DNA of 21,827 nucleotides. It comes from a virus. The translations under genes and the position numbers were made by a program. Below the pieces are notes generated by a model. That model made no database searches and was not told the origin of the DNA. It saw only the letters and a program-made list of their open reading frames with translations. Positions 1,259-17,500 of this stretch are shown here, piece by piece; positions within the stretch are counted from its first letter, which is position 1, and every line of letters begins with the position of its first letter. The stretch is from positions 1 through 21,827 of IMG/VR virus record IMGVR_UViG_3300009409_000058; one strand, written 5' to 3'.

Positions 1259-1585
1259 ATGGCTTTTAAATTGAAACCTTTTTATAATATCGATACTACT
1301 CCAATTTATAAAGTAGAATTAGAAGAGGGTGTTAATGGTAAAGCTAATAATAATGGTAGTATATTAATAGATAAAAATATTAATGACACATCCATAGTAG
1401 AAGGAATTATTGATCACGAAAAAGTTCATTTAGATCAAATAAAAAGAGGTGATCTTAATTATGATGCACATAGCGTGATATGGAAAGGTAAAAAATACCC
1501 TCGTTCTAAAATGAAAGAAGGAGCTAAGAATTTACCTTGGGAAAAAGAAGCATATAGTAAAACAAAACAAAAAACTTTAAAATAA
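1259..1585 (+). CDS. Small HExxH-motif (zincin-like) protein
   Basis: This 108-residue protein carries His-Glu-Lys-Val-His at residues 53-57 after a short hydrophobic helix start (EGIID). That is the HExxH zinc-binding and catalytic motif of metallopeptidases, with the His pair and Glu spaced correctly. Downstream, a Pro-Trp-Glu-Lys-Glu-Ala-Tyr stretch near residues 92-98 offers acidic residues that could give the third zinc ligand. The N-terminal half contains short strands that would be expected to flank the active-site helix. It is far smaller than most zincins, lacks a signal peptide and would act in the cytoplasm or inside the virion. It lies between the CGC-motif gene and the small gene before the holin, so a lysis or virion-maturation role is possible. 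Peptidase activity is an inference from the motif. Confidence 0.65.
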   Translation: MAFKLKPFYNIDTTPIYKVELEEGVNGKANNNGSILIDKNINDTSIVEGIIDHEKVHLDQIKRGDLNYDAHSVIWKGKKYPRSKMKEGAKNLPWEKEAYSKTKQKTLK

Positions 1586-1590
1586 AAAAA

Positions 1591-1842
1591 ATGGGAATAG
1601 GAAAATCAGGTTTAGGTGGAAGACCATCTATATTATCACATATGAAAACTACAGGTAAATCCTCAGGGGGATCATTAAAAAATAATCCAGATATTAAATA
1701 TGGGGGACCAGTAATTGATAAGTTTAAGTCACCAGTGAATGATGAAAAAAATATTTCTGGAAGTAAGAAAGTTAAAACTAAACATCATGATGATATGAAA
1801 GACTCTGCACAACTTATAGCACATGTTAGGAATACAACATAA
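1591..1842 (+). CDS. Small Gly/Lys/Ser-rich hypothetical protein
   Basis: This 83-residue protein starts five bases after the previous stop, behind a run of A, and its TAA (1840-1842) directly abuts the holin ATG at 1843, so the two are probably translated together. It is polar and probably disordered: Gly-rich at the start (MGIGKSGLGG), with many Lys, Ser and Asn, two adjacent His near residue 65, and no hydrophobic segment or Cys. No family is recognised. Its tight linkage with a holin hints at a lysis or late-structural role, but nothing in the sequence itself shows a function. Confidence 0.55.
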   Translation: MGIGKSGLGGRPSILSHMKTTGKSSGGSLKNNPDIKYGGPVIDKFKSPVNDEKNISGSKKVKTKHHDDMKDSAQLIAHVRNTT

Positions 1843-2223
1843 ATGTTTAAATTATTACTAGGTCTTTTAGGTAAAGGCAGTGGAAATAAAACTGTTGCTG
1901 GAAACTTGGCTTGGGATATAAGGGAAGCAATAAAAGGTAAGGAGTTAGATCCTGAAAAATTAATAGAATTACAAACAAAGATCAATGCAGTTGAAGCTCA
2001 GCATCGTACATTATTCGTTGCTGGGTGGAGACCATTTATTGGTTGGATATGTGGAGTAGCATTAGCCTATAATTTTGTCATAAGAGACTTATTTATATGG
2101 GCGACACAAACTACCGAAGCTCCACCTGCTTTACAAATGGATCATTTAATGACTGTTCTGTTGGGTATGTTAGGATTAGGTGGTTTAAGAACTTATGAAA
2201 AAATAAAAGGAAAAGATAAATAA
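1843..2223 (+). CDS. Phage holin, three-transmembrane type (Holin_3TMs-like)
   Basis: This 126-residue membrane protein has the plan I associate with the phage Holin_3TMs family: a short hydrophobic N-terminus (residues 2-10), a charged amphipathic stretch with EKLIELQTKINAVEAQHRT, then the hallmark Gly-Trp-Arg-Pro-Phe-Ile-Gly-Trp (residues 61-68) leading into a transmembrane helix to about residue 80, a loop with Pro-Pro-Ala-Leu, and a final hydrophobic segment ending in GLGGLRTYEK (111-120). Holins of this type gather in the inner membrane and open holes at a set time to start lysis. No endolysin or spanin is visible in the window. The start codon follows the preceding stop without a gap, indicating co-translation. 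Family assignment is confident; timing and partner are inferred. Confidence 0.85.
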   Translation: MFKLLLGLLGKGSGNKTVAGNLAWDIREAIKGKELDPEKLIELQTKINAVEAQHRTLFVAGWRPFIGWICGVALAYNFVIRDLFIWATQTTEAPPALQMDHLMTVLLGMLGLGGLRTYEKIKGKDK

Positions 2224-2234
2224 ATAAAATAAAT

Positions 2235-2966
2235 ATGTATCAACAAAATCAAACAGGAATGTTTACTCACGCAGTAGATATATTATTATCTGCTACATTA
2301 AGATCCCCTGAAAGTGCGGCTGGTTTAATAGCATCTTCAGCCTCAACTCTAGCTAATCTTCCAGTTACTAGAGAAGATATAGTATATGCCTCGGGAGGAA
2401 CATTTCTAGGTTCAGCTCAAGTAAGTACAAGAGGCCCAGGAACAGGAATTCAGAATGATAGATTTGGGGCTTCTTATAAAATTAGAATAGATGGTGCTGG
2501 TACTGTAGATAGAATACAAGTGGTACAAACAAGGCCTAATGGAACTATAAATGGTGCTGCGGTTGCAGCCCCATTAAACCCAGGCGCGGGACCTAATCTT
2601 GGTGTCACTGGACAAACTATACTTTTTGATGCTACAGCTATGTCAAACGCTTTTGGTGTTCAAGCGCCAGCTATAACAGGGATATTAACAATAACATTAT
2701 TAGCTGGAGATTTACAACCACCTTATAGTGGTGGCACTGGAGTAGCTACAGATGGTATATATGAGGCTGAACCTAATATAGGTGGTGGTTTTGGATTATA
2801 TTCTGGTAGTGGAGGTAATATAAAAGTAGAATTAGTTGGTGCGCCAGCAAATCAAACAGTAACAATAAGTGCTATACCAGTAGGAACAGTGGTAAATGGA
2901 TTATTTAGAAAAATATACACTACTGATGCGGCTACTACAGCAACGGGAATACTAGCCCTTTACTAG
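2235..2966 (+). CDS. Gly/Ala/Thr-rich probable virion protein
   Basis: This is a 243-residue protein starting 11 bases after the holin, behind a TAAATAAAATAAAT leader. An N-terminal helical-looking part (residues 1-45, with HAVDILLSATLRS) is followed by long beta-prone, Gly/Ala/Pro/Thr-rich sequence (from about 55) of the kind found in fibre-head or capsid-decoration proteins. There is no Cys, signal peptide or membrane segment. The C-terminus (KIYTTDAATTATGILALY) ends at a TAG followed at once by TAA, a tandem stop shared with several virion genes here. I do not recognise a family. A decoration, fibre or tail-accessory protein is the best guess from composition and from its place between the holin and the packaging genes. 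Confidence 0.65.
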   Translation: MYQQNQTGMFTHAVDILLSATLRSPESAAGLIASSASTLANLPVTREDIVYASGGTFLGSAQVSTRGPGTGIQNDRFGASYKIRIDGAGTVDRIQVVQTRPNGTINGAAVAAPLNPGAGPNLGVTGQTILFDATAMSNAFGVQAPAITGILTITLLAGDLQPPYSGGTGVATDGIYEAEPNIGGGFGLYSGSGGNIKVELVGAPANQTVTISAIPVGTVVNGLFRKIYTTDAATTATGILALY

Positions 2967-2970
2967 TAAA

Positions 2971-2997
2971 AAATTAAATTAAATTAAATTAAATTAA
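2971..2997 (+). repeat. (AAATT)5 pentamer leading into an ATG
   Basis: Five perfect AAATT units occupy 2971-2995, and a sixth unit changed to AAATG supplies the ATG at 2998. The repeat is the entire leader of the next gene. A shorter copy of the same arrangement precedes the gene at 21377. It acts at least as an unstructured A/T-rich initiation region; changes in copy number by slippage could tune initiation. Confidence 0.7.
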
Positions 2998-3270
2998 ATG
3001 AAAAAAGTAAAACCAATAGAAGCCGAACCGGCTAAAGTACAAATTACAGAAGAACAATTAATAAAAGTAAAAGAACAACAAGATTCATTGGCTGGTCTAT
3101 TAAGAGACATAGGTTATCTAGAGACTCAAAAACATGCATTAACTCATAAATATGCAGGTGTTGTTCAAGAAACTGAAGATTTTAAAGGTGAACTAGAAAA
3201 AGAGTATGGTGCGGTTAATATAAATCTACAGGATGGTACTTGCACTCCAATAGAGGAAAAAAGTGAGTAG
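2998..3270 (+). CDS. Small coiled-coil hypothetical protein
   Basis: This 90-residue, highly charged protein is predicted by eye to be almost all helix from about residue 17 to 70 (EEQLIKVKEQQDSL, LLRDIGYLETQKHAL), with heptad-like spacing of Leu and Ile, followed by a short C-terminal tail with YGAVNINLQDGTCTPIEE. The plan of long helices ending in a short beta tail recalls small proteins common in marine phages, with no defined role. The single Cys lies near the C-terminus. The stop TAG at 3268-3270 overlaps the GTG of the next gene by 8 bases, so the two are translationally coupled. A chaperone-like or assembly-accessory role is possible but unsupported. Confidence 0.7.
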   Translation: MKKVKPIEAEPAKVQITEEQLIKVKEQQDSLAGLLRDIGYLETQKHALTHKYAGVVQETEDFKGELEKEYGAVNINLQDGTCTPIEEKSE

Positions 3271-3490
3271 CGTTATAAGAAAAATTAGTATAGGTGCTGA
3301 TTATAAAAATGATGCCATGCATTACGCAGTTGGTCAGCAAGTTTATGGTGGGCACACTATATCTCATATATTACATGATGAAGAAGAGTCTTCTTATAAT
3401 ATTTATATTAAAAAAGAAGATGAGGTATTACCTTGGAAGAAATTCAATTCTAATATGGCTATATCGGTAGAATATGATTTAGAATACTAG
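3263..3490 (+). CDS. Small hypothetical protein with GTG start
   Basis: This 75-residue protein starts at GTG 3263, inside the end of the previous gene (GTGAGTAG overlap). Unusually for this window a purine-rich AGAGGA lies at 3252-3257, six bases before the start, and could act as a Shine-Dalgarno-like site or simply be codons of the upstream gene. The protein has a predicted beta-rich body (YAVGQQVYGGHTISHIL, SYNIYIKK) and ends with a Trp-Lys-Lys-Phe and a YDLEY tail. No Cys or membrane segment is present. I do not recognise a named family; the fold could be a small beta-barrel. The TAG stop at 3488-3490 shares its last G with the GTG of the next gene. Confidence 0.65.
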   Translation: MSSVIRKISIGADYKNDAMHYAVGQQVYGGHTISHILHDEEESSYNIYIKKEDEVLPWKKFNSNMAISVEYDLEY

Positions 3491-4095
3491 TGAATAGCAT
3501 TTATCAATTTATAATAAAACCAATTGGTGAAAGATATAACAATAAAATTAATATTAATAAAAAAGAATTAATTATTAATTCCAGTATTTCAAATCATAAA
3601 TTTATTAATAGAACAGCTAAAGTAGTAGGTATTCCACTAGGATTAGAAACACCTATTAAAAAAGGTGATACTGTTATTGTGCACCATAATATATTTAGAA
3701 GATATTGGGATATGAATGGAAAATCTGTAAATAGTTCTCAATTTTTTAAAGGTGAACTATATTTTGCTAACATAGGTCAAGTATATTTATATAAAAATAA
3801 AGATAATTGGAAACCACATAATGATTTTTGTTTTATAAAACCGTTATTAGAAAATAATGATTCTAAGATGGATAAATTAAAAAAGAATGCTGGTATACTA
3901 AAATATAGTAATAACTCATTAGAAGTGTTAGGAATAACTCCTGGAGACTGTGTTGGTTTTAAATCCAATAGAGAATTTGAGTTTATTATAGATAACGAAC
4001 TTCTTTATTGTATGGAATCAAATGATATTTTAATTAAATATGAACACTCAAAAAACCAAAGAGAGTATAATCCAAGCTGGGCACAAGGCAGTTGA
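3490..4095 (+). CDS. GroES-like co-chaperonin-type protein with two related halves
   Basis: GTG 3490 is the only start that keeps the N-terminal motif. Residues 8-16 (IIKPIGERY) match the way GroES proteins begin, and KKGDTVIVHHN (57-67) matches the GroES stretch with Gly-Asp before a hydrophobic strand. The second half repeats this plan: FCFIKP near 113-118, GITPGDCVGF (148-157) and IIDNELLYCMESNDILIKYE (166-185), where GroES has its DGEEYLIMREDDIL-type end. At 201 residues it is about twice the usual 95-100 of GroES. Phage co-chaperonins such as T4 gp31 cap host GroEL to fold the capsid protein, and its place just before the terminase and capsid genes fits that use. The last residues overlap the next gene by 56 bases and may be an extension. 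The similarity is by eye, so the fold is probable rather than proven. Confidence 0.5.
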   Translation: MNSIYQFIIKPIGERYNNKININKKELIINSSISNHKFINRTAKVVGIPLGLETPIKKGDTVIVHHNIFRRYWDMNGKSVNSSQFFKGELYFANIGQVYLYKNKDNWKPHNDFCFIKPLLENNDSKMDKLKKNAGILKYSNNSLEVLGITPGDCVGFKSNREFEFIIDNELLYCMESNDILIKYEHSKNQREYNPSWAQGS

Positions 4096-4312
4096 GGAAT
4101 TAATAAAAGTTGCTAAAGAAAAAATTATAGATTCAGAAGATGATATATCAGCTGATAGATTAAAAAATGCAGCAGCTACAAAAAAATTAGCTATCTTTGA
4201 CGCTTTTGAAATACTAACACGTATAGAAGAAGAGGAAAGTATGTTGAAAGAAAGTTCTAAAAAAGATAAAGGGACACAATTTAAAGGATTTGCAGAAACA
4301 AGGTTTAAATAA
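4040..4312 (+). CDS. Probable small terminase subunit
   Basis: This 90-residue, mostly helical, charged protein lies directly before the large terminase; its TAA overlaps the terminase ATG as TAATG (4310-4314). It starts 56 bases inside the previous gene in another frame, behind AATTAAAT. A central helix (SADRLKNAAATKKLAIFDAFEIL, about residues 38-60) and an acidic coiled-coil (RIEEEESMLKES) precede a basic tail (KGFAETRFK). Small terminase subunits bind the packaging site, form rings and regulate the large subunit; they are short, helical and usually encoded just upstream, which is the basis of this call. No helix-turn-helix can be proven by eye, so a different packaging-linked role remains possible. 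Confidence 0.45.
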   Translation: MNTQKTKESIIQAGHKAVEELIKVAKEKIIDSEDDISADRLKNAAATKKLAIFDAFEILTRIEEEESMLKESSKKDKGTQFKGFAETRFK

Positions 4313-6543
4313 TGTATATACAAACCCTTTATAAAATTTTACCTAATCACATTAAGTCTAAAATACTTAAAAGAAATAATAGATATAATAAATGGGAGAC
4401 TGGCTATAATGAAGAGCATGATGTTATTATTATTAGTAAAAGTGGTAAAATTGGGGAAATATATGAAATACAAGGTCTTAAGATTGCCCTTCCGTTAGAA
4501 GAAAAGGTTTATAAAAGATCAGGGAAAAAAGACGAACAATATTGGGAGTCAGCTAATTATCCAAAAGAATTGTCTAATATTAAAACAGTTTTTGATTGGA
4601 ATAATTATCCTTCTAATTTTAAAGATAAATGGTATGATTATATTGATGAAGAGTTTAAAAGGCGCGATGAAGGTTTTTGGTTCTATAACAAAGGTATCCC
4701 TAGTTATATTACTGGTTCTCATTACATGTACTTGCAGTGGACTAAAATTGATGTTGGCCAACCAGAGTTTCGTGAGTCCAACCGAATATTCTTTATATTC
4801 TGGGAGGCTTGTAAACTGGACACCAGATGTTACGGATTGTGTTACCTTAAGAACAGACGTTCTGGCTTTTCATTCATGGCATCTTCAGAACTTGTACACC
4901 AGGCAACTATCTCTTCGGATTCCAGATATGGAATATTATCGAAGACTGGAGCTGATGCAAAGAAGATGTTTACCGATAAAGTGGTACCCATATCAGTTAA
5001 TTACCCGTTCTTCTTCAAACCAATACAGGACGGTATGGACCGCCCCAAGACCGAACTCGCATATAGAGTCCCTGCCTCGAAACTCACACGGCGTAAACTT
5101 GATCAGAACGAACGTCCCGAGGACCTTGTCGGGTTGGACACCACAATCGACTGGAAGAACACCGGTGACAACTCGTATGACGGTGAGAAACTTAAGATCC
5201 TTGCCCACGACGAATCCGGGAAATGGGAGCGTCCGGACAACATCCTCAATAACTGGCGTGTCACGAAAACAACGCTAAGATTAGGTAGTAGAATAATTGG
5301 TAGGTGTATGATGGGTTCAACATCAAATGCTTTAGATAAAGGAGGTGGTAATTTTAAAAAGTTATATGATGCATCAGATGTTACAAACAGAAACCGCAAT
5401 GGTCAGACTAACTCAGGACTATATAGTTTGTTCATTCCTATGGAGTGGAATTACGAAGGATACCTCAATACTCATGGATTTCCTGTATTCGACACTCCGA
5501 AAAAACCCGTCACCAGCATTGATGGATCCAAAATTCAGATTGGAGTTATCTCGCATTGGGAAAATGAAGTCGAGGGCTTAAAGTATGATCAGGATAGTTT
5601 AAATGAATTTTATCGTCAGTTTCCACGAACAGAGAAACACGCTTTTAGAGATGAAGCTAAACAGTCTTTATTTAATCTAACTAAGATTTACGAACAAATA
5701 GATTATAATGAAGATTTAAGAAATACAAATATACTAACTAAGGGTAGTTTTCAGTGGGAGAATGGAGTTAAAGACACTAGAGTTGTTTTTTACCCTAATA
5801 AACAAGGGAGATTTTTAATCTCATGGATACCACCTATACAACTACAAAATAAATATTTAATAAAAAATGGTATCAAGTATCCTGGAAATGATCATACTGG
5901 TGCTTTTGGTTGTGATAGTTATGATATTTCCGGCACAGTAGACGGTAGAGGTTCAAAAGGAGCTTTACACGGTTTAACTAAGTTTTCTATGGAGGATGTT
6001 CCTCCTAATAGTTTTTTCTTAGAATACATAGCAAGACCACAGACTGCAGAAATATTTTTTGAAGATGTTCTAATGGCTATAGTTTTTTATGGTATGCCAA
6101 TATTAGCTGAAAATAATAAACCACGATTGTTATATTACTTAAAAAGAAGAGGTTATAGGGGATATTCTATAAATAGACCAGATAAGGTTTATAATAAACT
6201 TTCTTTAACTGAACGAGAGATAGGTGGTATACCTAATACTAGTGAAGATATTAAGCAGGCTCATGCGGCGGCTATTGAAGATTATATTGAAAACTTTATA
6301 GGTGTAATAGGTGATGGATATGGGGATATGTATTTCCAACAAACATTAGATGATTGGGCTGGGTTTAATATAAATAACAGAACAAAACATGATGCATCTA
6401 TAAGTTCAGGTCTTGCTATAATGGCTTGTAATAAAAATAGATATACACCACACGGGAAAAGAACTATATCAAAAGTTCCTTTAAATATTAGTTCCTATAA
6501 TAATGAGGGATACAATTCAAAAATAATCAAAATAAATGATTAA
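4312..6543 (+). CDS. terL: Terminase large subunit (packaging ATPase-nuclease)
   Basis: This 743-residue packaging motor drives ATP-powered DNA translocation through the portal and cuts the concatemer. The ATPase part shows a deviant Walker A loop (NRRSGFS, residues 181-187), a Walker B site (ILAHDE, 296-301) with the catalytic Glu after Asp, and a coupling motif (GSTSNA, about 345-350). The nuclease part has acidic residues in the expected order: Asp535 and/or Asp538 in CDSYDISG, Glu571 in FFLEY, and Asp694 in KHDAS. It is longer than the 420-600 residues usual for TerL, with an N-terminal extension of about 100 residues. It overlaps the small subunit at its start and the portal by 8 bases at its end. 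Base composition is mosaic: 4740-5275 is far more GC-rich than the rest (see the separate entry), yet the frame is unbroken. Confidence 0.9.
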   Translation: MYIQTLYKILPNHIKSKILKRNNRYNKWETGYNEEHDVIIISKSGKIGEIYEIQGLKIALPLEEKVYKRSGKKDEQYWESANYPKELSNIKTVFDWNNYPSNFKDKWYDYIDEEFKRRDEGFWFYNKGIPSYITGSHYMYLQWTKIDVGQPEFRESNRIFFIFWEACKLDTRCYGLCYLKNRRSGFSFMASSELVHQATISSDSRYGILSKTGADAKKMFTDKVVPISVNYPFFFKPIQDGMDRPKTELAYRVPASKLTRRKLDQNERPEDLVGLDTTIDWKNTGDNSYDGEKLKILAHDESGKWERPDNILNNWRVTKTTLRLGSRIIGRCMMGSTSNALDKGGGNFKKLYDASDVTNRNRNGQTNSGLYSLFIPMEWNYEGYLNTHGFPVFDTPKKPVTSIDGSKIQIGVISHWENEVEGLKYDQDSLNEFYRQFPRTEKHAFRDEAKQSLFNLTKIYEQIDYNEDLRNTNILTKGSFQWENGVKDTRVVFYPNKQGRFLISWIPPIQLQNKYLIKNGIKYPGNDHTGAFGCDSYDISGTVDGRGSKGALHGLTKFSMEDVPPNSFFLEYIARPQTAEIFFEDVLMAIVFYGMPILAENNKPRLLYYLKRRGYRGYSINRPDKVYNKLSLTEREIGGIPNTSEDIKQAHAAAIEDYIENFIGVIGDGYGDMYFQQTLDDWAGFNINNRTKHDASISSGLAIMACNKNRYTPHGKRTISKVPLNISSYNNEGYNSKIIKIND
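4740..5275 (+). other. GC-rich mosaic patch inside terL
   Basis: By hand count, rows 5041-5220 hold 98 G+C of 180 (about 54%), against 13 of 60 at 4561-4620 and 19 of 60 at 5281-5340. Codons shift too: AAG, GAC, AAC, CTC, GTC and CGT/CGC replace the AAA, GAT, AAT, TTA and AGA used elsewhere. A weaker patch at 5401-5580 is near 43%. The patch covers the Walker A to Walker B segment. Because stops are rare in GC-richer DNA, it also opens spurious frames on both strands. Recombination with a less AT-rich relative or a chimeric assembly could explain it. Confidence 0.7.
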
Positions 6544-8941
6544 CATTAACTATAATAGCAGTTTTCCAGATCAGGTAGTACCTGAATCAGAGAAAAAATC
6601 TCGGGAATATGGTTTAGCTGTAGCACAAGCTATAGAACATGAGTGGTTTAGAAATAATAGTGGACAAAATAGATTTCTTAATAATTTCCAAAATTTTAAC
6701 AGATTAAGATTATATGCAAGGGGTGAACAACCAGTTCAAAAATATAAAGATGAACTAGCTATAAATGGTGATTTATCTTATCTTAATTTAGACTGGAAAC
6801 CAGTTCCTATATTATCTAAGTTTGTAGATATTGTTGTTAATGGAATGACTGAAAAAGGGTATGATATAAAATCATATGCAACTGATCCTTTTGCTATAAA
6901 ACAAAGAACCAACTTTGCAACAAATGCTTTAAGTGATATATATAATAAAGAAATATTAGGTCAAATGGAAGCTATTGGTGTTACTGGTTTAGCTGCTTCT
7001 GCTTCCCCGGAGACTTTACCAGCAAGTAAAGAAGAACTAGATCTTTATATGCAGTTAAGTTATAAACAAAGTATAGAAATAGCTGAAGAAGAGGTAATAA
7101 GTAATATATTAGACTATAATAAATTTGATGAAACTAAAAAACAACTAGCTTATGATCTTACTGTATTAGGTATAAGTTGTGTTAAAACAAGTTTTAATTT
7201 ATCTGAAGGGGTTACTGTAGATTATGTTAATCCTGCTAATATTTGTTATTCTTATACAGAAGACCCTAATTTTGAAAACATATATTATGTAGGGGAAGTA
7301 AAAAATATGTCACTATCTGAAGTTAAAAGACAGTTTCCACATCTTACAGATAAAGAATTAGAAGAAATACAGAAATACCCGGGAAGAAATTCCTATACTA
7401 ATAGTTATTGGGGACAAAGTACCCAAGATCAAGTACAAATATTATATTTTGAATACAAAACCTATCATGATCAAGTATTTAAAATAAAACAGACACCTGA
7501 AGGTTTAGAAAAAACATTATCTAAAGAGGATACTTTTAACCCTCCGGATAATGATAATTTTAAAAAAGCATCCCGATCTATTGAAGTACTTTATTCTGGA
7601 GCAAAGGTTTTAGGGTTAGGTAATAATATATTAGAATGGAAGTTATGTGAAAATATGACTAGACCTAATGCAGATACAACTAAGGTTAATATGAACTATA
7701 TTATCACAGCGCCTAGAATGTATCAAGGTAGAATAGAATCTATTGTAAGTAAAACTATAGGTTTTGCTGATATGATTCAATTAACACATTTAAAACTACA
7801 GCAAGTATTATCTCGTATTGTACCCGATGGCGTATATGTAGATGTTGATGGGTTAGCTGAGGTTGATCTTGGTAATGGAACAAACTATAATCCACAAGAA
7901 GCATTAAATATGTATTTTCAAACTGGTAGTATTGTGGGTAGATCATTAACTCAAGATGGTGAAGGTAATAGAGCTAAAGTCCCTATTCAAGAGCTACAGA
8001 GTTCTTCAGGTATATCTAAAATACAGTCTATGATACAAACATATAATTATTATTTACAAATGATAAGAGATGTTACTGGGCTTAATGAAGCAAGAGATGG
8101 AAGCACTCCCGATGCACACGCTTTAGTAGGATTACAAAAACTAGCAGCTGCTAATTCAAACACAGCAACAAGACATATACTACAGTCACTAATGTATTTA
8201 ACAATAAGAACATGCGAAAATATAAGTTTAAGGGTGGCCGATATGCTTAGTTTTTCTTTAACTAAAGCAGCTTTAATAAATAGCATTAATACATTTAATA
8301 CAAATACTTTAAAAGAAATAGATCAGTTACATATTCATGATTTTGGTATATTTTTGGAACTAGAACCAGATGAAGAAGAAAAAGCTATGCTAGAAAAAAG
8401 CATACAAATAGCCTTACAAGCGGGTAATATTAATTTAGAAGATGCTATAGATATACGAGATATTAAAAATCTTAAACTAGCTAATCAATCACTTAAGCTT
8501 AAACAAGAGCAAAAACGAGCTAAAGATCAAGCTGCTCAGCAAGCTAATATACAAGCACAAGCTCAAGCAAACGCTCAATCGGCAGAAAAAGCAGCAATGT
8601 CTGAGGTACAAAAAGAGCAAGCAGTTGCACAAACAAAAGTTCAAATAGAACAAGCTAAATCTCAGTTTGAAATTGAAAGAATGGAACAAGAAGCTTTAAT
8701 CAAGAAACAATTAATGGCTGAAGAGTTTAATTATCAAATGCAATTAGCTGAAATGCAGGGTCAAGTTCAAAGACAAAAAGAACAATCAATAGAAGATCGT
8801 AAAGATAAAAGAGTAAAAATACAAGGCACACAACAAAGTGAACTTATAAGCCAAAGACAAAACGATGCATTACCTACTAATTTTGAATCAGCTGGTAATG
8901 ACAATTTGGATGGTTTTGGATTAGAGCAATTTAATCCGTAA
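6536..8941 (+). CDS. Portal protein
   Basis: This 801-residue protein follows the large terminase with an 8-base ATGATTAA overlap, the standard place for a portal. The N-terminal part has acidic and aromatic residues typical of the portal clip and wing (for example EHEWFRNNSGQNRFLNNF, residues 33-50), a long central alpha/beta body, and a stem-like region before residue 600 (MIQTYNYYLQMIRDVTGLNEARDG). The last 150 residues form a long Gln/Ala/Glu-rich coiled coil (about 645-765, with QAQAQANAQSAEKAA) and a short polar tail. Portals form the dodecameric gate at one capsid vertex through which the terminase pumps DNA, and they anchor the tail. The size and Gln/Ala coiled-coil tail match portals of large podoviruses of Bacteroidota. 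It ends in tandem TAATAG. Confidence 0.85.
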   Translation: MININYNSSFPDQVVPESEKKSREYGLAVAQAIEHEWFRNNSGQNRFLNNFQNFNRLRLYARGEQPVQKYKDELAINGDLSYLNLDWKPVPILSKFVDIVVNGMTEKGYDIKSYATDPFAIKQRTNFATNALSDIYNKEILGQMEAIGVTGLAASASPETLPASKEELDLYMQLSYKQSIEIAEEEVISNILDYNKFDETKKQLAYDLTVLGISCVKTSFNLSEGVTVDYVNPANICYSYTEDPNFENIYYVGEVKNMSLSEVKRQFPHLTDKELEEIQKYPGRNSYTNSYWGQSTQDQVQILYFEYKTYHDQVFKIKQTPEGLEKTLSKEDTFNPPDNDNFKKASRSIEVLYSGAKVLGLGNNILEWKLCENMTRPNADTTKVNMNYIITAPRMYQGRIESIVSKTIGFADMIQLTHLKLQQVLSRIVPDGVYVDVDGLAEVDLGNGTNYNPQEALNMYFQTGSIVGRSLTQDGEGNRAKVPIQELQSSSGISKIQSMIQTYNYYLQMIRDVTGLNEARDGSTPDAHALVGLQKLAAANSNTATRHILQSLMYLTIRTCENISLRVADMLSFSLTKAALINSINTFNTNTLKEIDQLHIHDFGIFLELEPDEEEKAMLEKSIQIALQAGNINLEDAIDIRDIKNLKLANQSLKLKQEQKRAKDQAAQQANIQAQAQANAQSAEKAAMSEVQKEQAVAQTKVQIEQAKSQFEIERMEQEALIKKQLMAEEFNYQMQLAEMQGQVQRQKEQSIEDRKDKRVKIQGTQQSELISQRQNDALPTNFESAGNDNLDGFGLEQFNP

Positions 8942-8968
8942 TAGTTATTATTAATTTTATATTATATT

Positions 8969-10210
8969 ATGTCAAATAAAAAACAAACAAAAAAAGAAGA
9001 GGTAGCTGTTAAAGCAATTGATACTACCCCGGTTAAAAAAGAAGGAGATTTTAAAATAAAGTCTGCTAAAAGAATGAAAAATCTTGGTGAAGATAAAACT
9101 CAAGATATAATCAAAGTTGATTTAAACAAACCTAAAAAAGAAGAAAAAGATGCCGTTCCTACACAAAAGACAAATGTGGGCGATGCTCCTGTCGAAAAAC
9201 TCAAAAACAGTGGCAACAGCGAAAAAGTGGTTGAAGAAGTACGGGAAACCGACGAAAAAGTAGACTCACCAATACAAGAAATAAAAGATGAAGACAATAA
9301 CATTAACGAGAGCGGAGTGGCAGGAAGCGATGAAACTCCCGCTACCTCATCAGAACAAAAAGAAATACCTCAGGAAGTTGAAACACAAAAACTCCCTGAA
9401 AATATAGAAAAATTAATTAAATTCATGGAAGAAACAGGTGGTGATGTACAAGATTATGCCCGTTTAAATGCTGACTATACTAATGTAGATGGGGATGCAT
9501 TACTTCATGAATATTACAAAACAGCTAAACCACATTTAAATAATGAAGAAAGAGGATTTATAATAGAAGACTCTTTCTCTTTTGATGAGGAATTAGATGA
9601 AGCAAGGGATATTCGTAAGAAAAAACTTGCATATAAAGAAGAAGTTGCGAAAGCCAAGAACTATTTGGAAGATTTAAAAGGTAAATATTACGACGAAATC
9701 AAGTTGAGACCCGGCGTTACCCAAGAACAACAAAAAGCTACTGATTTTTTCAACCGCTACAATGAAGAACAAGATACAAATAAAGCTAAACATGAAAGGT
9801 TTATTGCTAAAACTAAACAAGTTCTTTCTAGTGATTTCAAAGGTTTTGATTTTAAACTAGGAGACAAAAAATTTAGATATGGTGTTAAAGATCCCTCAAG
9901 TGTTGCAGATAAACAAAGTGATATATCAAACTTTATCGGGAAGTACCTAGATAAAAATGGGGAGATAGTTGATCACAAGGGTTATCATAAAGCTTTATAT
10001 AGTGCACAAAATGCTGATACATTAGTTAATCACTTTTATGAGCAGGGTAAAACCGATGCTATTAAAGAGCAATTAGCTAAGTCCAAAAATATAAATACTG
10101 ACCCCCGGGCAACTGCCTCTGGTGATGTTTTTGTTGGTGGATTTAAAGTAAAAGCAATGAGTGGTCTTGATTCTTCAAAATTAAGAATTAAAAAGAAAAC
10201 ATTTAACTAA
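8969..10210 (+). CDS. Probable scaffolding or capsid-assembly protein
   Basis: This 413-residue protein lies between portal and major capsid genes, the usual place of a scaffold, scaffold-protease or internal head protein. Residues 1-140 are a low-complexity Lys/Glu-rich, probably disordered region (KKEEKDAVPTQK, EKVVEEVRETDEKVDSP). From about 145 helices predominate (KLIKFMEETGGDVQDYARL; EELDEARDIRKKKLAYKEEV), ending with a basic tail (SSKLRIKKKTFN) that may contact the capsid shell. No Ser-His-Asp or other protease triad is evident, so an enzyme role is not supported. Base composition rises locally around 9181-9360 (43-50% GC), although part of this follows from Pro, Ala, Ser and Gly codons. 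Its leader is A/T-rich with a TTATATTATATT run. Confidence 0.6.
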   Translation: MSNKKQTKKEEVAVKAIDTTPVKKEGDFKIKSAKRMKNLGEDKTQDIIKVDLNKPKKEEKDAVPTQKTNVGDAPVEKLKNSGNSEKVVEEVRETDEKVDSPIQEIKDEDNNINESGVAGSDETPATSSEQKEIPQEVETQKLPENIEKLIKFMEETGGDVQDYARLNADYTNVDGDALLHEYYKTAKPHLNNEERGFIIEDSFSFDEELDEARDIRKKKLAYKEEVAKAKNYLEDLKGKYYDEIKLRPGVTQEQQKATDFFNRYNEEQDTNKAKHERFIAKTKQVLSSDFKGFDFKLGDKKFRYGVKDPSSVADKQSDISNFIGKYLDKNGEIVDHKGYHKALYSAQNADTLVNHFYEQGKTDAIKEQLAKSKNINTDPRATASGDVFVGGFKVKAMSGLDSSKLRIKKKTFN

Positions 10211-10223
10211 AAAAAAATAAAAA

Positions 10224-11681
10224 ATGGCTTTAATACCACAATTTGGTGCTATTGTACCTGCTCAAAATCAGCAGTTATTAGCAGCAAACTATTTAGCATT
10301 TGATGCTGGAGCGAATGATTTTGCTCAGCAATATTTGCCAGAATTATACGAACAAGAAGTAGAGCGTTATGGAAACAGAACGTTATCAGGCTTCTTAAGA
10401 ATGGTAGGCGCTGAAATGCCTATGACATCCGATCAAGTTATTTGGTCAGAACAAAACAGATTACACATAGCATACAATAACTGTGTTAGTAATCAAGGTG
10501 CTGCTAACCCAACTATTACAATTCCACTTGCTACTGCTCCTGGAGTTACAAGAAATGTAATAAGCCCGGGTCAAACAATAGTAGTAATGGACAATGCAGG
10601 TAACGAAGCAAAATGTTACGTATCTGCAAGTAACACTGGAACAGGTCAGTTAACCGTACAACCATATTTAACGGCTGGTCTTCCAGCGGCTACCATGGGT
10701 GCCACTGTTAAAATATTTGTATACGGTTCGGAATTTCAAAAAGGTGCTTCTACAGTTAACGCTGCAGCTGGTGCTTTAGCAGATGCTCCTGCGGCTCAAC
10801 CACAAGTAACTATTACTCCTTCTTTCACTCAATTTTCTAACTCTCCTATTATCATAAGAAATGTTTATACAATAAACGGATCTGATATGGCTCAAATAGG
10901 TTGGGTTGAAGTTGCCACAGAAGATGGAACTACTGGATACTTATGGTATTTAAAAGCGGAGTCTGAAACAAGATTACGTTTTGAAGACTACCTAGAAATG
11001 GTATGTGTTGAAGGTGAGTTAACAGCTGCTGGTTCAGGTGTTGCTGGTTTAGGTACAAACTTAGGTGGTACTCAAGGTTTATTCTCTGCTATTCAAGCTA
11101 GAGGTAATGTAGAAATTGGTTTCGCTGGTGCAGCTGGAATTGATGACTTTGATGAAATCCTTAAGAATTTAGATACTCAAGGAGCTATTGAAGAAAACAT
11201 GCTTTTCTTAAATAGATCAACTTCTTTAGAGTTTGATAATATGTTAAGTGCTGTGTCTCAGGGAGTAAATGGAGGTACTGCTTATGGATTATTTGAAAAC
11301 TCTGAGGAAATGGCATTGAATCTTGGATTTAGTGGTTTCCGTAGAGGATCTTACGATTTTTATAAGACTGACTGGAAATACTTAAATGACGCTTCTACTC
11401 GTGGTGCTCAAATAGGTATCTCTTCAATAGAAGGTGTTTTAATTCCTGCTGGAACTTAAACAGTTTATGACCAAATTCTAGGAACAAACATCAGACGACC
11501 ATTCTTACATGTACGTTATAGAGCTTCTCAAACAGAAGACAGACGTATGAAGTCTTGGTTAACTGGTTCTGCAGGTGGTGCATATACTTCAAATCTTGAT
11601 GCTATGGAGGTTAACTTCCTATCTGAAAGATGTTTAGTAACACAAGCTGCTAACAACTTTGTTTTATTCCAAGGAGTTTAA
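10224..11681 (+). CDS. Major capsid protein (HK97-fold type) interrupted by an in-frame TAA
   Basis: The gene begins behind a pure A/T leader (AAAAAAATAAAAA) and would encode about 485 residues, in the range I associate with capsid proteins of crAss-like and related Bacteroidota phages. The N-terminus shows AANYLAFDAGANDFAQQYLP, then RTLSGFLRMVGAEMPMTSDQ (residues about 51-70), a hallmark-like stretch of such capsid proteins. A Gly/Ala-rich middle and a FLNRSTSLEFDNMLSAVSQG segment follow. TAA at 11457-11459 cuts the protein after residue 411. The next 73 codons stay in frame and read as a normal capsid C-terminus: an NIRRPFLHVRYRA strand, MEVNFLSERCLVTQAANNF, then FQGV before tandem TAATAA at 11679-11684. 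The capsid fold would be incomplete without them. A point error, a nonsense mutant or ochre readthrough are the alternatives; the downstream part shows no decay. Confidence 0.8.
11457..11459 (+). other. In-frame ochre stop within the major capsid gene
   Basis: The codons run GGA ACT TAA ACA GTT TAT GAC. One base change would turn TAA into CAA (Gln), AAA (Lys) or GAA (Glu) and restore an unbroken 485-residue protein. It is a lone stop, whereas the true end is a tandem TAATAA, as in several other virion genes here. Confidence 0.85.
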
Positions 11682-11688
11682 TAAGTAC

Positions 11689-11732
11689 TGTAAAGTTATG
11701 GGGCATTAATTTGCCCCACCTTTACAATTTTT
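11689..11732 (+). terminator. Intrinsic terminator after the major capsid gene
   Basis: TGTAAAG (11689-11695) pairs with CTTTACA (11720-11726), and inside it GGGGCA (11700-11705) pairs with TGCCCC (11712-11717) around a TTAATT loop, separated by a small internal loop. It is followed at once by ATTTTT. This is a standard Rho-independent terminator 5 bases after the tandem stop of the capsid gene, and it would insulate or taper late transcription before the downstream genes. The following AT-rich stretch 11733-11754 (with ATTATATTATAT) could hold a new promoter, but no clear Bacteroidota -33/-7 pair is visible. Confidence 0.8.
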
Positions 11733-11754
11733 AACTATTTAATTATATTATATC

Positions 11755-12519
11755 ATGAAAACAAAAAAAATAACTCAACAAAATAGTTGGGAAATAAAAG
11801 ATAGAACATATCTTGTAACAGGGGTAAGTCAACCTTTAACATTAAAAATACCATCAAGACACACAACGCGACATGCTTTATTGTGGTTTGATGAATCTAA
11901 GAGCGAACAAAGAGAATTAAGATATGCTACAAATCAAAATTCACCATTTAAAGACGAACAAAAAGGTGAGGCAACTTTAGGACATATTTTATTTAAAGAT
12001 GGTGCATTAACTGTAAAAAAAACCAACCAATCTTTACAAAAAATATTATCTCTTTATCATCCTTTAAGAAATGTAAAATATAGAGAACTCGACATAATAT
12101 CAGATGCTAAAGATGAATTGGTAGATCTTGAATTAGAAATAGATGCTTTAAATATGGCTAGATCAGTAGAAATAGATCAGGCCGAGGCAATATTGAGAGT
12201 TGAAATGGGATCTAAGGTGTCAGAGATGAGCTCTAAGGAGATAAAAAGAGATTTACTTATCTTTGCTAAAGATAATCCTAAATTATTCATAAATTTAGCT
12301 AATGATGAGAATGTTCATTTAAGGAATTTTGCCATAAAAGCAACTGAAGCTGGAATTATAATGCTAGCTTCTGATCAAAAAACATTTAAGTGGTCCTCAA
12401 ACGGTAAAAAATTGATGACTGTTCCTTTTGATGAACATCCTTATGCTGCTATGGCTTCTTTCTTTAAAACAGATGAAGGTTTAGATGTCTATAAATCAAT
12501 AGAGAAAAAACTCTCTTAA
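11755..12519 (+). CDS. Hypothetical protein between capsid and connector genes
   Basis: This is a 254-residue soluble protein starting after the terminator. Its N-terminal third is beta-prone with basic and aromatic residues (SRHTTRHALLWFDESKSEQ, residues 35-53; LRYATNQNSPFKDEQKGEAT, 55-74). The rest is mostly helical, with a charged coiled-coil near residues 113-135 (DAKDELVDLELEIDALNM). It has no Cys, signal peptide or membrane segment. It lies between the capsid and the first connector-like gene, so it may be a head-completion or capsid-associated protein, but no family is recognised. It ends with TAA just before a second hairpin (12531-12560). The upstream terminator suggests its expression depends on readthrough or a local promoter. 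Confidence 0.65.
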   Translation: MKTKKITQQNSWEIKDRTYLVTGVSQPLTLKIPSRHTTRHALLWFDESKSEQRELRYATNQNSPFKDEQKGEATLGHILFKDGALTVKKTNQSLQKILSLYHPLRNVKYRELDIISDAKDELVDLELEIDALNMARSVEIDQAEAILRVEMGSKVSEMSSKEIKRDLLIFAKDNPKLFINLANDENVHLRNFAIKATEAGIIMLASDQKTFKWSSNGKKLMTVPFDEHPYAAMASFFKTDEGLDVYKSIEKKLS

Positions 12520-12530
12520 TATGTAATACT

Positions 12531-12560
12531 AATAAGGGGGGTGTAAAAACCTCCTTTATT
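12531..12560 (+). terminator. Hairpin between the 254-aa gene and the connector genes
   Basis: AATAAGGGGGG (12531-12541) pairs with CCTCCTTTATT (12550-12560) over 11 bp with two G-U pairs, around a TGTAAAAA loop. The descending arm has TTTATT but only a short T-run follows, so it is a weak terminator or an RNA-stabilising structure. With the terminator at 11689 it brackets the 254-aa gene. The A-rich stretch after it (12562-12576) is the leader of the next gene. Confidence 0.6.
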
Positions 12561-12576
12561 ATAATAAAAACAACAA

Positions 12577-13329
12577 ATGGCTATAAATGTAAACACAGTA
12601 TATCAAACTGTTTTGCTTATACTAAACAAAGAACAACGGGGTTATATGACACCCACTGAGTTTAACAGTATAGGTACACAGGTTCAGTTAGAAATGTTTG
12701 AAAAATATTTTGAAGATATTAATCAACAAGTACGCATACCACAAACTGACACAGATTATGCTGATAGAGTAGAAAATATTGATGAAAAAATAGCTATATT
12801 TAAAACTTTTAATACCGCCAACTACATAACAAACAATAACTTAAGTTATTTTACTATTCCTAATGTAGATGCTTATGGTAATCAAACTACTTTTTACCGA
12901 CTTGGAACTGTACTTTATAATAATGAAACAGAAGTACAAAGAGTAGATAGAGGTGATTTTTATTATATTGATAAATCACTATTAACCAAACCCTCAACAA
13001 CTTTTCCTGTATATTTATATGAGAATAATTTATTATATGTTAAACCAACAACAATAGTAAGTAATATACAACTAGATTATATAAGAAAACCTAATGACGT
13101 TAAATGGGGTTTTACTGTTGGAGGACTAGGTCAATATATATATAATTCAAACACATATGATGTCACAAATGAACCAACCGGATCTTTAAATTTTGAAATT
13201 CATGACTCAGAACAAACTGAGGTAGTATTAAAAATATTAATTTATGCTGGTATAATAATCAGGGATCCTAATATAGTACAAGCTGCAGCACAACAAGTGG
13301 CTAATGACGAAGTAAATAAAAAAAGCTAA
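12577..13329 (+). CDS. Head-tail connector (ring-type) protein
   Basis: This 250-residue protein begins with a helical segment and a Gly-Tyr-Met-Thr-Pro-Thr-Glu-Phe-Asn motif (residues 22-30, in KEQRGYMTPTEFN) that recurs at the start of connector proteins of Bacteroidota phages. A beta-rich middle (FYRLGTVLYNNETEVQRVDR; LLYVKPTTIVSNIQLDYIRK) follows. The C-terminus is a helix pair (TEVVLKILIYAGIIIRDPNI, about 215-235, then QAAAQQVANDEVNKKS) matching the adaptor-ring plan of short-tailed phages. Such proteins form a ring beneath the portal and close the head. It is followed by tandem TAATAA and, six bases later, by the next structural gene. Exact ring number cannot be assigned; the family call rests on pattern and context. 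Confidence 0.65.
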   Translation: MAINVNTVYQTVLLILNKEQRGYMTPTEFNSIGTQVQLEMFEKYFEDINQQVRIPQTDTDYADRVENIDEKIAIFKTFNTANYITNNNLSYFTIPNVDAYGNQTTFYRLGTVLYNNETEVQRVDRGDFYYIDKSLLTKPSTTFPVYLYENNLLYVKPTTIVSNIQLDYIRKPNDVKWGFTVGGLGQYIYNSNTYDVTNEPTGSLNFEIHDSEQTEVVLKILIYAGIIIRDPNIVQAAAQQVANDEVNKKS

Positions 13330-13335
13330 TAAATT

Positions 13336-14562
13336 ATGGCAACACCTAACGGGGGATTAATCACAGAAACAGACGCACAATATTATGCAGGTACACAAGT
13401 ATTTATAGCAGCTAATAACCAAACTATATTTACAACTACGTTTAATACTGATCTTACTTTTGGAAGCAACGATCCCACTAATCCTTTATATAATACAAAT
13501 AATTTTAGATTATATACTAGCGTTAGTGGTGCTCAAGGAACATTTACTGAATACATTAATACATACACGGTTGTAAATGATATTATAACTTTTGGAGTTG
13601 TAATAGCTGATGGTACATATGTAGTAGTACAGTTATTAAGTCAGAGCGGGGGAGAGTTTGGTAACAACGATGCTTTTGGTAATGTTGTAGAAGAAAATTA
13701 TGGAAGTTATGCATATATATCGGTTGATGATTTAGTTAATAATTTTTTAGTAGCTTATGTTGGGGCTGGTAAATTAATATCTAGTGTTAAAAAAACAGAT
13801 GTTATTTTTCATACTAAAAGAGCACTACAAGAATTTAGTTATGATACACTAAGAAGTATTAATTCTCAAGAACTAACAATTCCAGCAAACCTAAGTGTAC
13901 CTCTTCCTCATGATTATGTTAATTATGTTAATGTTTCTTGGATTGATCAAGTAGGTGTAAAACATATAATATACCCTACAACTTTAACAAGTAATCCTTA
14001 CACAAAACCTATTCAAGATGCCAATGGGGTTCCTATTCAAAGTAGTACTGGTGCAACTATTACAGGTACTTCTATAACAGAAGAGAGGTGGGCTGAACAA
14101 AATACTACAATATTACAAGAAATAAGAGATGATATAACGGGAAGATTGTTATCTGATGGATTATGGGGTGTTTATGGAACAGGTCTTTTGGGTTATGGGC
14201 AACTATATGGTATGCAACCAGAGACTGCTCAAATGAATGGGTGGTTTACAATTAACGATAGAGATGGTAAAATGTCTTTTTCTAGTGATTTAAAAGATAA
14301 GTTAATAATATTAGAATATATATCGGATGGTTTATCATATGATCAAAATATGAGGGTTCCTAAATTAGCTGAAGAAGCGGTGTATGCTTATTTAATGCAT
14401 GCTATATTAGCTAGTAGAATAAATCAACCAGAATATGTTGTTCAAAGATTACGTAGAGAAAAAAGTGCTAAATTAAGAAATACAAAAATAAGGTTATCTA
14501 ATATTAAATCTAATGAGTTTATTCAGATTATGAGAGGTAAATCTAAATGGCTTAAATTTTAA
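13336..14562 (+). CDS. Second head-tail connector or tail structural protein
   Basis: This 408-residue protein follows the first connector by six bases. The N-terminal 130 residues are beta-rich and Asn/Thr-rich (FTTTFNTDLTFGSNDPTNP). From about 135 a helical core begins (VDDLVNNFLVAYVGAGKLI, SVKKTDVIFHTKRALQEFSY) that resembles the helical core of connector and tail-stabilising proteins in Bacteroidota phages, followed by a strand-rich part (LPHDYVNYVNVSWIDQVG), a second polar insert and a basic helix at the end (RLRREKSAKLRNTKIRLS). The beta N-terminus looks like an added domain on a connector core. It would join the portal-adaptor ring to the tail below. Function is inferred from position and fold impression. 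It ends with TAA four bases before the giant tail gene. Confidence 0.6.
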   Translation: MATPNGGLITETDAQYYAGTQVFIAANNQTIFTTTFNTDLTFGSNDPTNPLYNTNNFRLYTSVSGAQGTFTEYINTYTVVNDIITFGVVIADGTYVVVQLLSQSGGEFGNNDAFGNVVEENYGSYAYISVDDLVNNFLVAYVGAGKLISSVKKTDVIFHTKRALQEFSYDTLRSINSQELTIPANLSVPLPHDYVNYVNVSWIDQVGVKHIIYPTTLTSNPYTKPIQDANGVPIQSSTGATITGTSITEERWAEQNTTILQEIRDDITGRLLSDGLWGVYGTGLLGYGQLYGMQPETAQMNGWFTINDRDGKMSFSSDLKDKLIILEYISDGLSYDQNMRVPKLAEEAVYAYLMHAILASRINQPEYVVQRLRREKSAKLRNTKIRLSNIKSNEFIQIMRGKSKWLKF

Positions 14563-14566
14563 ATAA

Positions 14567-17500
14567 ATGGCAGAAGTTAAAAATTCTTTTATTAAGTCCA
14601 AAATGAATAAAGACCTGGATGCCAGGTTGTTGCCAAATGGTGAATATCGTGAAGGAATTAATATACAAGTAAGTAGATCCGAGGGGGCCGACGTTGGAGC
14701 GTTAGAGAATGTTTTAGGTAATAAATTAATTTTAGATTTAGTTACTAAAACTGGTATAAGTGGACTTGAGTGTATAGGTATGTATACTGATGATACTAAT
14801 AATAATATATATTTATTTTTAACAGATTATACAGCAACTAATATTGCTACAATAACAGGGAATAATCAAAGACAATTTAACGCTGCCTCTTTAAATTATT
14901 ATGAAGGAGCAAATAATTTTATATACCTATATAATACATCTACCAACACAGCAACAATGCTTGTTAGAGGAGCATTTTTGAATTTCTCTACAACAAACTC
15001 TATATTATCTGTAAATATATTAGAAGATTTATTGTTCTGGACAGATAACAGAAATCAACCAAGACGAATAAACGTACAGTTTGCTAATACTGATGCTGCT
15101 ATAACTAATCCAACATATTATACAACTGAAGATCAGATATCTGTAGCTTCATATAATCCTTATCCTGCTATAGATTTATATTATTTAAATTCAGACGTAT
15201 ATAATACTAACGGTGGTCAAGGAACTGTATTAACCACTCAATTGGGTATAGGAACAGATATAATTTTAGACCCAGCTAGTTTAATTGGTATAAATCCAGA
15301 ATATTTAATTGGTGCTGTTGTTACTGGTACAAATATTCCTACAGGTGCTACAATACATATTTATGCTGGTACTACTATAACACTAGACACATCTACAGCG
15401 GTGGCTGTAACAGCGGGAACTGTATTAACATTTAATGCTAATCAAAGCACAACTACATATGTAACTAGTATGTTGGATGTAAGTAGTCCTTTTCTTCCTA
15501 ATGGTACAGATATAAATCCAGATTACAATGCAAATTATTCGGGTGATCCGGATTATTTAGAAGATAAGTTTGTTAGGTTTAGTTATAGATTTAAATTTGA
15601 AGATGGTGAAGTTTCTATAATGGCTCCATTTACTCAAGCAACTTTTATACCTAAACAAGATGGTTATTTTTTAGGTGCTGATACAACTGGAACTCCTACA
15701 CCTGTTGGTAATACAACTGATGAAGATTCTACATATAGAACTACTATTGTTGAATTTATGGAAAATAAAGTAAATCAAATATTACTTCAAATACCATTAC
15801 CTTCACAAGGTAAATCATTAAATAATGATTTCAAAGTATCAGAAATAGAAATATTATATAAAGAATCTGATGGTTTAGCTGTGAAAATAGTAGATACTAT
15901 TTCCTCAGATGGTAATCAAGGTTTTGGAATGATGCCAGATCCTTCAAATCCAGTGGATTTTATAGCTAGAACAACAGAATCTGTTACATATAGTTATCAA
16001 GGTATAAAGCCTTATAAAACATTACCTGAGCAAGATTTAATTAGGGTATATGATAAAGTTCCTGTTAGAGCTTTAAGTCAAGAAATAATAAGTAACAGAG
16101 TTGTTTATGGTAATTTTCAAAATAAACATACACCACCTAATTCTTTAGAATTTAACGTAGGTATATTTGATAAATATAATTTTAATATAGGGCAAGCTCA
16201 GCCAGTTGCGGAGTGGTATACAAGTATAGTAGAATATCCAATGCACACTGTTAAACAAAACAGAAACTATCAAGTTGGGATAGTGTTGTCGGATAAATTT
16301 GGTAGATCATCTACAACTATATTATCATCTAAACAATCACAAGGGGTTTTTACTGATCCTATAAGTGGAGATCCTACTACTTTTCAAGGTGGTACCATAT
16401 ATCATCCTTATGAAGCCAACCCTGGGCTTAGTGGTAATAAAGTTAATTCTTGGCCTGGTGATTCTATAAAAATATTATTTAATCAAGCAATTGGTTCTAA
16501 TGGACCAATAGCTGGAGTTGAACCTAATTTAGAAAATTTTTGGCCCGGTATTTATAACGGAGATATAACTAGTGAATATTATAATCCTTTAGGTTGGTAT
16601 TCATATAAAGTTGTTGTTAAACAACAAGAACAAGAGTATTATAATGTATATCTTCCTGGTATATTAAATGGATATCCCAATGCGCCAGCTGCTCCACCAG
16701 ACCCAGCAAACACCATAAATTTTATTACTTTATTTGGAGATAATATAGATAAGGTGCCCGCAGATATGACAGGTGTTGGCCCTGATCAAAAACAATACAG
16801 AAGTGGTGTACAACTATATGGTAGGGTAACACCGGAATCTGTAAGTGTACCTTCTCCAACTAATAATACTCAATTCTACCCAGGAATATTAGCCAATAAT
16901 ACAATAGCTATAGCTAATCAAGACTCTATATTTGGTACGGTTGTTGATTATTTAGATGTTTATCAAACTGAGTCAAACCCTCCAGTAGGTAGAGTGTCCC
17001 AATCAGACGTAAATAATCCCATAGGAAGTGATCCTCAACCAGTAGCTACCACAACAGCTTATAATTTTTTATTAGGTGTTTATGAAACCGCACCGGTAGA
17101 GTCAGTTATAGATATATATTGGGAAACTTCTACTTCTGGTTTAATATCAGAATTAAATGAAGCTATTAATGCTGAAAGCGGTGGTATAGTTGGTTTTGAT
17201 ACCACTGATGGTACTGGAAAATGGGTTTATTTTCAAGATGAAAATATTATACCGGGTCAATCAGTAAATACAAGAGGTAATACATATGACTCGCTAGCAC
17301 CTTTTTATCCTATCTATGGGGGAGGAAGTGCGGTTGTAAATTCCATAATTAATTTAACATCAGTTATTGATGGTGCAGGTAGAAACAGGACAACTGAGTT
17401 TCAATTAAATAGAGATTCCGGTAATGGAGCTGAGGGGCAAGATACGTATAATATTACTATAACAACTGATAGTTTTTTTTATTATGGACAAAATGCTAAT

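Follow-up and report, generated by a model that had tools for sequence, protein, structure and literature searches.

An in-frame TAA in the major capsid protein gene of an elemovirus-like phage contig is absent from a near-identical sibling contig

We report that the TAA interrupting the major capsid protein (MCP) gene of virus record IMGVR_UViG_3300009409_000058 is very probably a singleton C>A change, representing either a sequence or assembly error or a defective allele, and not a site of programmed readthrough. The window, i.e. the whole stretch of DNA analysed, comprises the entire IMG/VR virus record (21,827 bases), and the structural genes and sites of the capsid region given below are on the plus strand.

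Results

Layout of the capsid gene

The window carries a tailed-phage structural gene cluster in the order terminase, portal, scaffold-like protein, MCP and then more structural genes, as judged from the ORFs and PHROG profiles. The portal gene (6536-8941; phrog_6547) and the scaffold-like gene next to the MCP gene (8969-10210; ORF list and scan of relatives) are intact, the latter encoding a protein 100% identical to that of a related contig, L284. The gene downstream of the MCP gene (11755-12519; ORF list) is also intact, and its DNA is 100% identical in the alignment with the sibling contig L451 (see below). Elsewhere in the window, a 126-aa protein encoded at 1843-2223 matches Pfam GTA_holin_3TM (E 2.5e-10) and is likely a holin.

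The MCP gene, which encodes 485 residues in relatives, spans 10224-11681. An ORF of 411 aa starts with ATG at 10224 and is closed by the TAA at 11457-11459, corresponding to codon 412. Reading on in frame confirmed what an earlier note on this DNA had described, namely that 73 sense codons (11460-11678) follow this TAA and end in a tandem TAATAA (11679-11684), the ordinary end of the gene. In a PHROG profile search, residues 30-411 aligned with positions 33-378 of the phrog_13704 profile (E 7e-68), and the 73-aa piece with positions 385-446 of 452 (E 1.3e-12). Because the two pieces match successive parts of the same profile, the locus is one gene with one stop and not two genes. A separate start for the 73-residue part was considered and rejected, the nearest ATG past the stop (11467) being out of frame and soon closed. 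Homology to the elemovirus-like MCP family extends over the whole length of the protein (phrog_13704, and tblastn matches to elemovirus and Cellulophaga phages).

Specifically, the MCP of Flavobacterium phage vB_FspP_elemoE_6-9C (YP_010109075.1) is homologous to both halves of the window gene, with 38% and 60% identity, and this phage shares the window's gene order of portal, structural protein and MCP. The elemovirus MCP is annotated as a single continuous CDS and has AAA (Lys) where the window has TAA.

A sibling contig with an intact capsid gene

Contig L451 (IMGVR_UViG_3300027844_000072, 8,056 bases) aligned end to end with window positions 7521-15576 at 99.913% identity, with seven differences and no gaps. 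Five of these are synonymous transitions, one is a missense change in the portal gene located 27 bases from L451's own end, and the seventh is the stop base; position 11458 is A in the window and C in L451, such that codon 412 of the latter is TCA (Ser). This is the sole difference within 11301-11760, and the region past the stop is identical (219/219 nt). An intact gene in an otherwise identical genome is what a nonsense allele or a sequence error predicts. From this comparison, the gene being whole in a contig 99.9% identical to the window, we conclude that within the strain the TAA is peculiar to this one contig, that it is not fixed in the virus, and that the capsid can be built without readthrough. 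The earlier note had taken reads with a sense codon in nearly all molecules as the mark of an error, and L451 largely supplies such an intact molecule, as an assembled contig and not as reads.

A frameshift or a generally poor contig was rejected as the cause, the comparison with L451 being gapless and its differences mostly synonymous, unlike contig L144 (IMGVR_UViG_3300047157_000138), which is full of frame breaks. L144 and a further contig, L321, have many frame breaks and stops in conserved genes and are probably error-rich assemblies.

The three options raised in the earlier note (an error, a nonsense mutant in a mixed population, or readthrough) remain the right set, and we favour a reading that covers the first two. 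The virus would have an ordinary, unsplit HK97-fold MCP gene of elemovirus-like phages, with Bacteroidota as hosts judging from its relatives, and in this contig the middle base of the Ser412 codon would read A for C, giving TAA. This base may be an error, introduced by amplification, DNA damage or assembly, that became fixed in the assembly consensus. Somewhat less likely, although a real possibility, it marks a genuine but non-functional nonsense allele, i.e. a mutation in a defective genome or in a lineage in its last round, in which case intact siblings in a co-infection would provide the capsid protein that packages the defective genome. The otherwise good quality of the contig, gapless and with few non-synonymous differences from L451, fits such an allele, as does a singleton of the same kind in another pair of contigs, L199 and L231 (see below); against it, a defective genome would have to be in the majority among the reads to enter the consensus, and the conserved genes of these contigs very seldom carry an isolated stop otherwise.

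Codon 412 among relatives

Codon 412 was compared across relatives, as the earlier note had proposed. The first 80 relatives all have a sense codon for Ser or Thr (80/80), and the 79 relatives found via the next gene likewise have Ser or Thr; the six nearest MCPs, with 89-95% protein identity, all have TCA. Together with two further scans these make up 303 distinct MCPs, among which codon 412 is sense in 302 and almost always encodes Ser or Thr (TCT 150, TCA 112, ACT 17, ACA 10, AGT 6, AGC 4, and TCC, TCG, ATG and TGA one each). The scans may omit records very near the window, although contigs at 99.7% and 99.9% identity were still returned. A collection-wide scan for the surrounding motif gave no match with TAA and one contig with TRR, which carries TGA; a search of genome contigs for the stop pattern gave no matches. 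Thus, the stop is not kept among close relatives as programmed readthrough would predict, L451 and 302 of the 303 MCPs being sense. The suggestion that the original codon was CAA, AAA or GAA finds no support for this strain, given TCA in L451 and codons for Ser or Thr among relatives, and AAA in the isolated elemovirus makes that codon conceivable in the wider family.

The part past the stop is under strong constraint. Compared with L199, the window has 16 synonymous and one non-synonymous codon differences in this region, which together with the 219/219 nt identity to L451 indicates that the frame past the stop is real coding sequence. In the MCP alignment, invariant or near-invariant residues flank codon 412 and fill the C-terminal 73 residues. 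The view that this tail is a normal capsid C-terminus is thus borne out by its conservation, the phrog_13704 match and the fold match described below.

Contig L284, 99.67% identical to window positions 5969-10842, ends before the stop site. Fourteen of its 16 differences fall within one 265-base stretch of the MCP gene (window 10475-10739) and include three amino-acid changes (codons 102, 142 and 172), a pattern suggestive of recombination or of diversifying change in this section of the capsid protein.

A second stop at the same base

The contig with TGA, L199 (also L192; IMGVR_UViG_3300031687_000130), has about 83% DNA identity to the window over the MCP region. Its TGA at 5097-5099 is the equivalent of window codon 412, with the same base changed (G in place of C), and contig L231, 99.896% identical to L199, has C at this base and hence TCA. 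The remaining six differences between L199 and L231 are synonymous transitions. The stop-making change in the window is a transversion, and the remaining strain variation in both pairs, the portal change aside, is made up of synonymous transitions. In a maximum-likelihood tree computed with stop codons masked, the window pairs with L451 and L199 with L231; both pairs lie inside a clade of 25 in which the 23 members other than the two with a stop have TCA or TCT. Because the two stops are on separate tips and each has a TCA sibling, they are, on this tree, separate single-base changes at the same base. Descent of both from a shared stop, which the 16 synonymous to one non-synonymous differences past the stop had first made attractive, was rejected, given that the nearest relatives and both 99.9% siblings have TCA and that the tips are separate.

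Two observations count against a singleton change, i.e. that the rest of the contig looks clean and that an independent stop is present at the same base in a second contig. Isolated in-frame stops are otherwise rare, with one clear case, the L126 portal gene, and two or three doubtful ones; in the former an isolated TGA lies near window portal residue 250 in a protein that otherwise aligns. From about 745,000 codons of conserved genes, with 373,000 one-step opportunities, and an assumed 1,500-5,000 MCPs, the background rate predicts a stop at codon 412 about 0.003-0.04 times. The collection holds at least several hundred MCPs, as one scan gave 16 hits for a haplotype seen in 0/114 unselected matches. 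Since L199 was found through a search aimed at codon 412, its recurrence is one surprising coincidence and not proof, and in view of the low expectation we reserve a little probability for a site that tolerates stops.

A systematic hotspot, i.e. a base at which sequencing, amplification or damage errors are frequent, would explain why the same place was hit twice, and we regard it as unlikely. The affected base and its local context (ACTTCAAC) are the same in both lineages. On the opposite strand, the changes C>A and C>G become G>T and G>C, which guanine oxidation is known to produce. Artefactual G>T changes caused by oxidative damage have been described (PMC12390751). However, TCA is kept at codon 412 in 112 other distinct MCPs, and the stop site shows no established error motif. 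A change templated by a quasi-palindrome, GTTTTAATTCC-TGCT-GGAACTTAAAC, considered by eye, was rejected, as its arms retain other mismatches.

Readthrough, hopping and reassignment

We also considered that the stop is passed, either by readthrough of TAA or TGA or by a hop of peptidyl-tRNA-Thr, allowing stop alleles to survive. In such a hop the tRNA would leave one of the two Thr codons that flank the stop and land on the next (ACT-TAA-ACA in the window, ACT-TGA-ACT in L199), and these flanking codons make it conceivable; different stops at the same base in two separate lineages and the strong constraint past the stop point the same way. However, both near-clonal siblings have TCA, so that the constraint reflects the sense allele, and the collection scan returned one other contig only with a stop at this codon. 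No RNA structure was found around the stop, folding energies being like those of shuffled sequence (z between -0.3 and 1.2); some readthrough sites need no such structure. Moreover, no suppressor tRNA was detected in the window, itself a genome fragment, or in the relatives checked, the only tRNAs being Met, Gly, Gln-ttg and Pro, and the truncated MCP would, according to the structural model, lose part of its core fold. We therefore consider programmed or tolerated passage of the stop very unlikely, and just as improbable is codon 412 being a site where stop alleles repeatedly arise and persist because they are passed in translation by readthrough or by such a hop, with a facultative two-length capsid protein. 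Programmed readthrough as a trait of this virus, yielding 411- and 485-residue forms as the earlier note had allowed, is not supported by these comparisons.

Under reassignment, the codon would be expected within the reading frames of numerous genes and would have ceased to terminate any. In the window, one in-frame stop was seen, and TAA closes many other genes; this and the MCP gene's own TAATAA contradict reassignment, in agreement with the earlier view that no stop codon is generally reassigned. General recoding or a suppressor tRNA was rejected, none being detected in the window or the relatives checked.

Predicted fold of the capsid protein

The intact L451 protein was modelled with 103 relatives as alignment, giving a mean pLDDT of 66 (moderate confidence). 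Its best structural matches are phage capsids, i.e. the phicrAss001 MCP (PDB 7qof; Z 12.2) and the Vibrio phage VP1 capsid (9in6; Z 12.1), consistent with an HK97-type fold within the limits of this model. Sequence identity to these is 10-14% over the aligned part, and a PDB sequence search gave no matches. The structural alignments follow both capsids to the C-terminus, extending to residues 484-485, and because the HK97-like match thus reaches the last residue of the full protein, the residues lost past the stop are, in the model, part of the core fold. Given the architecture of the HK97 fold, an MCP without its last 73 residues would be expected not to assemble.

Residues about 80-171 (window 10461-10736) match, in the predicted structure, the small beta-barrel domain of V-ATPase subunits (rmsd about 2.4 over 75 residues), probably no more than a widespread type of barrel that the capsid fold carries as an insertion. 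This barrel-like part coincides with the region where L284 differs.

Discussion

Our literature search found no report of this case. Readthrough of the coat-protein stop in RNA phage Qbeta, which gives the A1 protein, resembles it in that the reading frame of a capsid protein contains a stop. There, however, the stop is conserved and termination at it already yields the complete coat protein, whereas the window's short form is without core residues and the stop is absent in the sibling contig. In-frame stops have been described in phage genes, including those of some phages infecting Bacteroidota and of crAss-like phages (PMC10607447, PMC7886860), and in phAss-1, 41 ORFs carry an in-frame reassigned codon. 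Compared with such phages, where many genes are affected, the window has a single in-frame stop, confined to the MCP gene, TAA closes many of its other genes, and neither it nor the relatives checked yielded a suppressor tRNA.

The matter of a 'split capsid gene' in a metagenome contig is thus settled by a sibling contig that is nearly identical and has the gene whole, and neither a readthrough annotation nor a two-gene annotation is appropriate for the MCP of the window. Should the recurrence at codon 412 be real biology, it would mean that a core capsid domain contains a position able to tolerate stops, a surprising outcome. On the sequence evidence, the observation is real, and the split does not characterize the virus.
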